Virus record (IMG/VR): IMGVR_UViG_3300020174_000060
Location: 1-25,660 of that record
Direction: 5' to 3' (one strand)
DNA: 25,660 bases
Origin: a virus
The notes beneath the pieces were generated by a model. The model worked only from the letters and a program-made list of their open reading frames with translations. It was not told the DNA's origin and searched no databases. A program made the translations under genes and the position numbers. Position 1 is the stretch's first letter. Each line of letters opens with the position of its first letter. Positions 1,760 to 4,334 of this stretch are shown piece after piece.

Positions 1760-2341
1760 TTAATTTTCTGCATAGTTTATAAATTGAGCAATGCTTACCC
1801 TTGTTCCATCTCCCTGTATTGGTGTTGTTGCATGTGATGCACACCCAGGAAAGATAATAGCTCTGTTTTCTTTAAAGTCTACTTGATGATCTATGTCTTG
1901 AAAGTACATATCACCACCACTAAACTCACCAATACCTAATAACACAATTACTGTAAACACTGAGAGATCTGTATGTTGATTGTATACCTCATTATTATTA
2001 TAGTAATTTACTAATATCGTATCAACAGTAGACTTCTTAATATGTTTATAATGCACGCTACGTGCAATTAGTTCGTCTAAATATTTATCTGTAAATATCT
2101 TTTTATTGTATTGTACAATTAATGATTCACTAGCATCATAATACAACTCATATAAAAACACACCCGTTCCAGTTTTTTGAGAGTTATTACCATTCATTGC
2201 ATCCCCAGTTTTACCAGGTGGTTTCCTGTATTTATGAATACTAACCACTTCATTCTTAACATGTTGCAACTCTTCAGGTGTGTAGAAATCATCAAGGATT
2301 ACGAGATCTAAATTAGGCTTTTCCACAAAACTTAATTTCAT
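1760..2341 (-). CDS. 2OG-Fe(II) oxygenase (prolyl-4-hydroxylase-like), third in tandem
   Basis: A 193-aa protein. The ATG at 2341 forms an ATGA overlap with the stop of the preceding gene, so I preferred it to the further upstream start at 2365. The double-stranded beta-helix signature is visible: iron ligands H123 and D125 (motif YNQHTDLSVFT), F-S-G-G-D at 140-144, distal ligand H170 (motif IIFPGCASHATTP) and R181, the expected 2-oxoglutarate salt bridge, 11 residues later. These enzymes use O2 and 2-oxoglutarate to hydroxylate a protein or small-molecule substrate, releasing CO2 and succinate. The target here is unknown. It follows two other oxygenases in the same coupled cassette. Codons are very AT-rich (a counted stretch near 2041-2100 is 28% GC). 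Confidence 0.85.
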   Translation of the reverse strand: MKLSFVEKPNLDLVILDDFYTPEELQHVKNEVVSIHKYRKPPGKTGDAMNGNNSQKTGTGVFLYELYYDASESLIVQYNKKIFTDKYLDELIARSVHYKHIKKSTVDTILVNYYNNNEVYNQHTDLSVFTVIVLLGIGEFSGGDMYFQDIDHQVDFKENRAIIFPGCASHATTPIQGDGTRVSIAQFINYAEN

Positions 2342-2922
2342 CGCCAAGGTTCTCCACCTACCCACAACACTGCTGTTTTTCTAACACCCTTAGTTACTGG
2401 GGTAACTCTATGCAACAAGTACGATGGGAAGAACCATGCTCTGCCTAACCTCATCTCTAAAGTTTCATCAGTATCAGAAACTTTAAACTGCAACTCACCA
2501 CCCTCATATTCTTTTGGCTCAGATAGCATTAATACCATAGACAGCTTGCGTGGTACTGTGTTGTCTGAGGGACAAGCATCTGTGTGCCAGTTGTAATGTC
2601 CTTGGTATGCTCCACTATATTCTGACAACTGCATGTCTTCATAAAAACCAGTGAGATTAATGTGAAAAAATTTACTATTAACCTCCGATACTACTTGAGC
2701 AATCTTCTGCCAAATGTGTTGATTTTGTTCTGAGAAATCTACCCATCCAACATTTGTTCTTCTTGTATGCATATCATTACCAGAGTTCCCAACTTCTGCT
2801 GCATGATAATTTATCCACGATGGATGATGTCTTAAAAAATGTATATCTTCTTCAGTAAGAAAGTTATCCCAATAAACTACATTCTCTTTTCCGTTAGGGT
2901 TTCTCGGATTTAACAACATCAT
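2338..2922 (-). CDS. PKHD-type 2OG-Fe(II) hydroxylase, second in tandem
   Basis: A 194-aa enzyme with the full PKHD hydroxylase pattern. It has iron ligands H113 and D115 (motif YNWHTDACPSD), the R-K-L-S-M-V-L-M-L-S-E-P strand and Y-E-G-G-E-L at 139-144. Next come R-A-W-F-F-P-S with distal ligand H171 (motif LLHRVTPVTKGVRKTA) and R181 for 2-oxoglutarate. This is the PiuC/YbiX-like class, common in marine cyanophages and pelagiphages, where the substrate is generally unknown. It starts with tandem ATGs at 2922 and 2919, five bases after the previous stop, and its own stop overlaps the next start (ATGA). The length matches a single-domain member. Catalytic residues appear intact, so it should be active. 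Confidence 0.88.
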   Translation of the reverse strand: MMLLNPRNPNGKENVVYWDNFLTEEDIHFLRHHPSWINYHAAEVGNSGNDMHTRRTNVGWVDFSEQNQHIWQKIAQVVSEVNSKFFHINLTGFYEDMQLSEYSGAYQGHYNWHTDACPSDNTVPRKLSMVLMLSEPKEYEGGELQFKVSDTDETLEMRLGRAWFFPSYLLHRVTPVTKGVRKTAVLWVGGEPWR

Positions 2923-2927
2923 ACAAG

Positions 2928-3488
2928 TTACTTAATCTCCATAAGATAAGTTCTGTCTTTCAAGTAAGAGTAAACTTCTCTATTAGTATTATCACCTATC
3001 TCATCAGTATGCTTACCATCAGCATACACATAATGTAAAAACACTTGACCAGAGTAATATCCATCTGGCCCATCACATTTATTTCTCCAGTGTTCTTGGT
3101 CCATGCCGTTATACAAAACTCCATCACCTTCGGCAAGATCAATACGTGTACCCTCTAAATAAATTGGGTATGAGTAATGATGCGATCTGCCTAGCTGTAT
3201 AGTTACACTAACTTCACATGCAGGTCTGTCAGTATGCTTCTCTAACTCATTGCCGTTTTGATATAACCTAGCGTATGCGTAAGTTGGAATTAACTTTTTA
3301 CCAACAACACTTTCGATCCTAGACCACAATCTTTCTTGTAATGTTTCAAACACAATGTCATGATGCATAAGTGTCAATGAATTTGGCACTTGATCGTCTT
3401 CTTTTTGCTCCTGCAAATCTACATTGCGTAATAATACATGTGTAAAAAACTGACAAAATTCTTTTGGTACAAGGTTTTTAATTATCAT
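2928..3488 (-). CDS. 2OG-Fe(II) oxygenase-like protein, first in tandem
   Basis: A 186-aa protein. The iron-binding H-x-D is at H85 and D87 (motif LEKHTDRPACEVSVTIQLG), followed by a strand pattern typical of the jelly-roll core. The distal histidine is probably H133 (motif MDQEHWRNKC), and the chain continues to GQVFLHYV. The usual Arg or Lys about ten residues after the distal His is not in its normal place. This variant, ending in Q-V-F-L-H-Y-V, is one I associate with marine phage and bacterial members, so it may bind the co-substrate differently. It starts in an ATGA overlap with the cupin-like gene upstream and ends five bases before the PKHD hydroxylase. The substrate is unknown. Confidence 0.75.
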   Translation of the reverse strand: MIIKNLVPKEFCQFFTHVLLRNVDLQEQKEDDQVPNSLTLMHHDIVFETLQERLWSRIESVVGKKLIPTYAYARLYQNGNELEKHTDRPACEVSVTIQLGRSHHYSYPIYLEGTRIDLAEGDGVLYNGMDQEHWRNKCDGPDGYYSGQVFLHYVYADGKHTDEIGDNTNREVYSYLKDRTYLMEIK

Positions 3489-3958
3489 TTAACAGTAAAC
3501 TTATGAACAATGCCGCCATTTAATTCTACCATAACATTCTTATCTAACGGTACATAGTTAAACTGTCTTAGCTTTACCCCATTCACTTTTACTTTGTCAC
3601 CATCAGTGACTAGTAAGAATGAGTTTGCAGCAGCATTCACTTGACCATCAGTCACATCAGCAACTGTATATTCATCAACATTGTTTTTAGGTAGAATCAA
3701 TACCCATGTGCATCCTTGTTCATTAGTAGAGTAAGTAATCTTTTTGTCATTCTTAAACTCACTCAGATCAAACCATTTTTTCAATGGTAAGTCATGGTTA
3801 ACTACTCCATTAGATACATTGACATATCCATGTGCAAGATAAAACTGCATCTGCGTATTGCCTTGTAATGTGTTTGGATGCACGATAGAATCATTTGCTG
3901 TTGCTGCTCCAAAGCATATTGCAAAATCTCTGCACTGTACAAGATTCATTACTCTCAT
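3485..3958 (-). CDS. Cupin-like beta-rich protein of unknown function
   Basis: A 157-aa product. I chose the ATG at 3958 because AAGGGGAT lies just upstream; longer readings (to 3991) overlap the previous stop without a better site. The chain is largely beta-strand with alternating hydrophobics, e.g. TWVLILPKNNVDEYTVADV and then SFLLVTDGDKVKVNGVKL and GGIVHKFTVK. The pattern of strands with N-G turns is like a small jelly-roll or cupin. No clear metal-binding His cluster is visible, so an enzymatic role is not supported. Its stop overlaps the start of the first oxygenase (ATGA), which suggests it works with that cassette, perhaps as a binding or regulatory partner, but that is inference. Confidence 0.6.
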   Translation of the reverse strand: MRVMNLVQCRDFAICFGAATANDSIVHPNTLQGNTQMQFYLAHGYVNVSNGVVNHDLPLKKWFDLSEFKNDKKITYSTNEQGCTWVLILPKNNVDEYTVADVTDGQVNAAANSFLLVTDGDKVKVNGVKLRQFNYVPLDKNVMVELNGGIVHKFTVK

Positions 3959-3968
3959 TATGATCCCC

Positions 3969-4334
3969 TTACTCTGCCATTGGAGGTACAATTACTTCGC
4001 TAGCAAATGTTACCTCTGTGTTAGTGTTTATTAAATCAACAACATTATATTCAAATGTTTGTCCGACTAAAGATTTAAGCTTGGCTTGCATTTCAGTATT
4101 AGCATGAGCTTGTTCTGCTAGCTTGGCCTGCTCTGCTAATCCTATGCCTTGCTCTGCAATTCTTTTCTTTAATAGTTCAACATCAGTAATATCAGGATAT
4201 TGTTCTATTGGTTGCATCGCATAAGCTTCATAGTCTTCTGGATTATTAGTCGTTGTTTCATCAGATGAAAAAGACACTACAATTGAATGAGAGTCTTCGT
4301 CATACGCCTTTACTTTAAATTTAATTGTCTTCAT
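3969..4334 (-). CDS. Small fibre-associated protein (putative chaperone), unknown function
   Basis: A 121-aa acidic protein. The ATG at 4334 has GAGGAC about five bases upstream and removes a 40-base overlap that the upstream start at 4388 would create. The N-terminus (MKTIKFKVKAYDED) is beta-like and followed by N-P-E-D-Y. The middle (about 50-90) is a Gln/Ala/Glu-rich helix (motif AEQGIGLAEQAKLAEQAHA), and the C-terminus returns to beta strands. Small proteins of this shape often follow the fibre or adhesin genes in marine podoviruses. A tail-fibre assembly or chaperone role is inferred from position only. It lies 14 bases after the glycine-rich adhesin candidate. Confidence 0.6.
   Translation of the reverse strand: MKTIKFKVKAYDEDSHSIVVSFSSDETTTNNPEDYEAYAMQPIEQYPDITDVELLKKRIAEQGIGLAEQAKLAEQAHANTEMQAKLKSLVGQTFEYNVVDLINTNTEVTFASEVIVPPMAE

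Follow-up and report, generated by a model that had tools for sequence, protein, structure and literature searches.

A conserved and exchangeable 2OG-Fe(II) oxygenase cassette in the receptor-binding gene block of a marine phage, with the adhesin or fibre tip as candidate substrate

The window analysed here is the whole stretch of 25,660 bases of an IMG/VR virus record, and it is probably a fragment. On the minus strand the terminase end comes first, then the portal, capsid and tail genes, the fibre and, after it, a block of oxygenase genes (Table 1). A preliminary description of this DNA had reported four coupled genes from position 3958 to 1760, and all of them were recovered on the minus strand, with ATGA overlaps between the genes of P0004 and P0003 and between those of P0002 and P0001, and a 5-base gap between those of P0003 and P0002. 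A scan for promoters and terminators gave counts no higher than in shuffled sequences, and an Rfam search returned no match.

Table 1. Genes of the fibre, adhesin and oxygenase block in the window.
Gene product	Position	Strand	Basis or remark
P0007, tail fibre, 730 aa	5338..7530	-	N-terminal ~169 aa conserved with MEP301, rest replaced there
P0006, Gly-rich adhesin, GP38 type, 329 aa	4349..5338	-	PF05268 and Gly-rich motifs
P5, small conserved protein adjoining the adhesin	3969..4334	-	Pfam matches all below the cut-off or absent
P0004, predicted two-cupin-fold protein, 157 aa	3485..3958	-	Structure model; metal ligands not conserved
P0003 (oxA), 2OG-Fe(II) oxygenase	2928..3488	-	PHROG 2954 ('ferrochelatase' label), motif, model
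P0002 (oxB), PKHD-type 2OG-Fe(II) oxygenase	2338..2922	-	Pfam PF13640, PDB matches
P0001 (oxC), third 2OG-Fe(II) oxygenase	1760..2341	-	Near relatives have different oxygenase families in this slot

The H-x-D...H signatures attributed earlier to the three oxygenases are intact in all of them. The metal triad of P0003 (H85/D87...H133) is invariant across 35 aligned sequences, that of P0002 (H113/D115...H171) is kept in at least 90% of 64 sequences, and P0001 carries H123/D125...H170. In both P0001 and P0002, R181 occupies the basic 2OG-binding position about 10 residues past the distal histidine; P0003 has neither Arg nor Lys at this usual position, and its R74 and R101 are invariant. The agreement with Pfam profiles differs among the three. 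P0002 matches 2OG-FeII_Oxy_3 (PF13640) over the cut-off (E=1.1e-16), and its matches in the PDB are PKHD-type hydroxylases (best E=2.5e-10). P0001 is borderline, falling slightly below the cut-off for the same profile (E=1.3e-5) and over it in a six-frame scan, and is by these scores a weaker PF13640 member than P0002. P0003 gave zero matches in Pfam-A at E<=1, the ferrochelatase profile included. P0001 and P0002 are 22% identical, and profile comparison gave no link of P0003 to the other two; both observations rule out a recent duplication of one oxygenase, in agreement with the earlier view that the three belong to different branches.

The database name of P0003 is at odds with its predicted structure. 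PHROG 2954, named 'ferrochelatase', matches P0003 at E=9e-45, and the AlphaFold model of the protein (pLDDT 90.3) has the double-stranded beta-helix fold of 2OG oxygenases, as the preliminary description led one to expect. P. putida P4H ranks first for this model by Foldseek (E 4.9e-7), and structural comparison gave matches to PiuC (Z 14.7, 2.6 Å over 149 residues), collagen P3H1 (Z 14.1), chlorovirus vCPH (Z 13.2, 2.8 Å over 145 residues) and PHD2 (about Z 13). Enzymes that act on proteins, namely P. putida P4H (EF-Tu), PHD2, P3H1 and the chlorovirus collagen hydroxylase, are among its closest solved folds. Given the missing Pfam match and the confident oxygenase-fold model, the reading of P0003 as a ferrochelatase was rejected. 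The PHROG 2954 / GC 615 family as a whole is, judged by sequence and model, a 2OG-Fe(II) oxygenase family for which the name 'ferrochelatase' is unsupported, and the predicted enzyme class of the cassette oxygenases is firm. They resemble the PKHD-type hydroxylases PiuC and Sbal_3634, P0002 by sequence and P0003 by fold; in contrast to the window genes, those two are cellular and lie outside phage adhesin loci, and the name PiuC refers to iron uptake.

The first gene of the four had been described as cupin-like, and the model of P0004 (pLDDT 88.7) indeed shows a two-cupin fold, with AerE, HutD, YhhW and BacB as neighbours (Z 12-13, ~3 Å over ~150 residues). In an alignment of 10 sequences, none of the columns that are invariant or almost so holds a His or Glu that could serve as metal ligand. 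An active cupin was ruled out for this reason, and because the ligands are not kept P0004 is more likely to be a helper or binding protein than another enzyme. In relatives the cupin slot is occupied by a member of the P0004 family or of family u1; the two are mutually exclusive, and hhalign did not link them despite their common slot. P0004, P5 and one u1 protein had no tblastn match in the isolate phages of the phage collection.

P0006 bears three marks of a GP38 adhesin: a match to PF05268 over the cut-off (E=1.6e-6, 28.6 bits against 25), a place after the fibre, and Gly-rich motifs, with all Gly5 runs of the record lying in this one protein. From its position next to it, P5 would probably be the adhesin chaperone. 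This arrangement is like the GP38 module of Salmonella phage S16 and the T-even phages, in which the fibre is followed by a Gly-rich receptor-binding adhesin. S16 carries the type GP38 adhesin, yet its genome gave no match to PF13640, and its gp38 is followed by a holin, whereas in the window the adhesin is followed by P5, the cupin-fold protein and the oxygenase array. Adhesin composition was tried as a guide to which residue is modified and set aside, given that it does not clearly follow the oxygenases present and that only a weak Pro trend was seen (p=0.011, uncorrected).

The first surveys of relatives started from genes of the cassette itself, for the most part the oxygenases. In the relatives found through the oxygenases, the fibre is followed by the adhesin, P5, the cupin slot and the oxygenases, in this sequence. 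The four-gene order is beyond chance, because it recurs in dozens of viral contigs; the genes are not scattered in related phages, and the place after the fibre genes noticed in the preliminary description proved to be a lasting tie to fibre and adhesin genes across relatives. A second survey, seeded on P5 and blind to oxygenases, gave 78 loci, 61 of them with at least 3 kb downstream, drawn partly from the same contigs as the earlier scans and with near-identical contigs all counted: the adhesin lies upstream in 73 of the 78, a cupin-slot gene comes next in 59 of the 61, and labelled 2OG genes number at least one in 50/61, at least two in 48/61 and at least three in 34/61. Pairwise distances between loci are correlated for oxA and oxB (r=0.92) and for oxA and the adhesin (r=0.81), with 0 of 499 permutations as high; the comparison covers cassette genes only, with no core-gene control, and is fitted both by joint transfer and by shared phage descent.

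Within this order, the set of other families found between oxA and oxB and after them varies from locus to locus. Of these, u4, u8, u38 and u89 have profile scores of 2OG oxygenases, and u3 does so less strongly. In the closest relatives the last slot holds u8, u38 with u89, or u4 in place of oxC, with adhesin, oxA and oxB constant, indicating a fast turnover of the third oxygenase slot. Three such genes in a row are less unusual than was first thought, since as many as four or five distinct oxygenase-like genes occur at this locus in relatives, and cyanophages have similar clusters. The multistep modification suggested in the preliminary description gained no support. Family u2 was also considered as a 2OG enzyme; it has no Pfam or PHROG match, carries HxD in 25 of 38 sequences with only the His conserved, and stays a candidate.

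A natural experiment is provided by the OM43 phage MEP301, the nearest isolate by portal in tblastn (84% identity over the match). It is identical to the window at 85% in the capsid, 81% in the portal, 79% in tail tubular B and 73% over 169 aa of the fibre N-terminus; the similarity then ends inside the fibre and picks up again at the lysis side. Between these breakpoints MEP301 carries an S74-chaperone fibre, SPRY, other tail genes and a homing endonuclease, and it has zero PF13640 matches and zero Gly5 runs. A search of MEP301 for oxA, with no positive control of its own, found nothing, and the same model matched 13 other records. By this comparison, the block past the fibre N-terminus is swapped as one unit between MEP301 and the window. 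The joint absence of oxygenases and adhesin in MEP301 bears on whether the enzymes could be ordinary auxiliary metabolic or nucleic-acid oxygenases in a variable locus, linked to the adhesin only by hitch-hiking. Phage 2OG oxygenases, frequent in marine phages, are usually treated as auxiliary metabolic genes with an unknown role (PMC10436341, PMC10580990), a divergent oxA copy adjoins DNA replication genes in P-SSM7, and the third slot turns over fast. Hitch-hiking is nonetheless quite unlikely, given that the order is kept across divergent contigs with matched distances and that both components are missing together in MEP301.

The link to the Gly-rich adhesin itself is looser than that to the locus. 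A third survey started from the fibre N-terminus and covered 43 loci with sufficient sequence. Of these, 10 carry arrays, which in 5 loci are accompanied by a separate Gly-rich adhesin and in the other 5 are not; 6 further Gly-rich adhesins stand without an array (Fisher p=0.09; 0.06 after thinning). HxH motifs bind iron in some fibre tips, and in L190, L206 and L215, which have no separate Gly-rich adhesin, the inspected tips carry HxH and belong to the fibre itself; oxA/oxB-type genes come after these fibres (L215:7071 on, L190:10001 on, L206:3451 on). In six of the 13 other phage records that contain oxA (S-SSM5, P-RSM4, S-SM1, HTVC033P, Sf-CH11 and ACG-2014b), Gly6-run genes are no more than ~6 kb away from it, and in the first four every Gly6 run of the genome is near oxA. 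The distance is within ~14 kb in syn9 and S-H9-2, and in the remaining records such genes are distant or absent; divergent oxA copies are distant from them in P-SSM7, S-CAM22 and ACG-2014g, and S-SCSM2R has oxA and no Gly6 run. The Gly-rich adhesin as sole obligatory partner is weakened by the array-only loci and the distant oxA copies. Because arrays occur without the adhesin and adhesins without an array, it is neither required nor sufficient, and on these locus comparisons the array belongs to the receptor-binding module.

The cyanomyophages S-SSM5, P-RSM4 and S-SM1 are like the window in that a Gly-rich gene downstream of their fibres has oxB-like and oxA-like genes nearby, in clusters where 2OG, 'ferrochelatase', leprecan and PhyH genes follow the fibre genes. 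They differ in being large T4-like phages that carry a bigger and different set of enzymes, and no homologues of P5 or P0004 were found by tblastn of the phage collection. For a cyanophage cluster of carbamoyltransferase, halogenase and 2OG genes, capsule decoration or a secondary metabolite was proposed in a jumbo phage paper (PMC7824862), and the array of the window might likewise make or decorate a small secondary metabolite or capsule component. A carbamoyltransferase adjoins the array in S-SSM5 and P-RSM4, the Synechococcus phage Sf-CH11 has a tryptophan 7-halogenase, and the small-molecule cupins AerE and BacB are among the closest folds of P0004. Such a product is, for the window, distinctly improbable: neither a carbamoyltransferase nor a halogenase was seen among its genes, the tie to adhesin and P5 is tight, and P0004 is without conserved metal ligands. 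The halogenase gene of Sf-CH11 (L174:9732-11288) lies between 2OG genes and is likewise flanked by Gly-rich genes, shortly before oxA.

Modification of the host envelope was also considered. The oxygenases could act on lipid A, an LPS sugar or a membrane lipid, for instance to block superinfection, and they would stand at this locus because the choice of receptor is tied to changes of the envelope. There are 2OG hydroxylases of lipid A and of Kdo, and a desaturase-like gene of the membrane fatty-acid type lies in or beside some cassettes (L032:7781-8512, L080:2726-3451, L120:6884-7666), matching Pfam FA_desaturase below the cut-off (E=5.4e-5). LPS glycosyltransferases are found in pelagimyophage host-recognition islands (PMC7029224). 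Both the modification and this reason for its location are rather unlikely, since few of the loci have the desaturase-like gene and the oxygenases sit among late virion genes, a position that would fit assembly better than an early change of the envelope.

In its gene order, coupling, motifs, predicted folds, adhesin linkage and one-unit exchange, the cassette is real, conserved and exchangeable. It can be understood as an exchangeable receptor-binding cassette consisting of the fibre shaft, the GP38-type Gly-rich adhesin, P5, the two-cupin protein, probably a non-catalytic helper or binding protein, and the 2OG-Fe(II) oxygenase array. Most likely, the oxygenases would act in the host cytoplasm on the adhesin or fibre tip after its synthesis and ahead of assembly, hydroxylating its side chains, and this would change the surface chemistry, stability or receptor fit of the tip; we infer both this substrate and the residues modified. 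The location of the oxygenase genes inside the virion gene block suits modification during assembly. Also in favour are the intact catalytic motifs and folds, the protein-acting enzymes among the folds closest to P0003, the adhesin linkage in the P5-seeded survey, the correlated distances, the exchange seen with MEP301 and the Gly6 runs near oxA. Against it weigh the arrays and Gly-rich adhesins that occur apart, the distant oxA copies, the indistinct relation of adhesin composition to the oxygenases present, the S16 genome free of PF13640 matches and the missing Arg/Lys of P0003. Of the single explanations considered, an accessory kit for hydroxylating the receptor-binding tip of the phage itself is the best, with about as much confidence as doubt attached to it. 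More tentatively, a dedicated modular protein-hydroxylation kit for receptor-binding proteins may exist among aquatic phages, in which adhesin and mix-and-match oxygenases spread together. If so, host recognition would be diversified chemically as well as by sequence. The conserved tie to the receptor-binding module offers a concrete, testable candidate substrate, and would shift many phage 2OG oxygenases from host metabolism to virion maturation.

Precedent comes from the collagen hydroxylases of chlorovirus PBCV-1 (vCPH) and mimivirus (L230), virus-encoded 2OG hydroxylases tied to collagen-type proteins (PMC9301287; PMC9546862), of which vCPH is among the closest folds to the P0003 model. 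Those two are giant viruses that infect eukaryotes and have genuine collagen repeats, whereas the neighbour in the window is a GP38-type adhesin, the presumed substrate. Viral use of prolyl 4-hydroxylase 'remains cryptic' according to a study that cites the chlorovirus precedent (PMC9301287). Neither a phage 2OG enzyme tied to fibre hydroxylation nor a description of the adhesin, P5, cupin and oxygenase cassette was found in the literature searched, which covered few subscription journals. Oxygenases in marine phage host-recognition islands are previously on record, given that variable islands with Fe(II) oxygenases and a Gp38 adhesin were assigned the inferred function 'host recognition' (PMC3909814).

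Some further observations concern relatives and annotation. The 'ferrochelatase' label of PHROG 2954 / T4-like GC 615 proteins is widely used and appears in many cyanophage records. PHROG 274 and 2297, named 'DNA endonuclease (V)', match several 2OG oxygenases of these loci, and by these matches their labels look unreliable too. Bacterial oxA neighbours (Rhizobacter) include an FkbM methyltransferase and another 2OG gene, which is not decisive. Proteins of ~370 aa with an oxA-like domain (L222:14222-15334, L209:14463-15578, L168:7487-8596, L113:3704-4819) adjoin another, Gly_rich_2-like, type of Gly-rich adhesin, and the one in L168 contains a second 2OG domain as well (PF13640 at 277-363).
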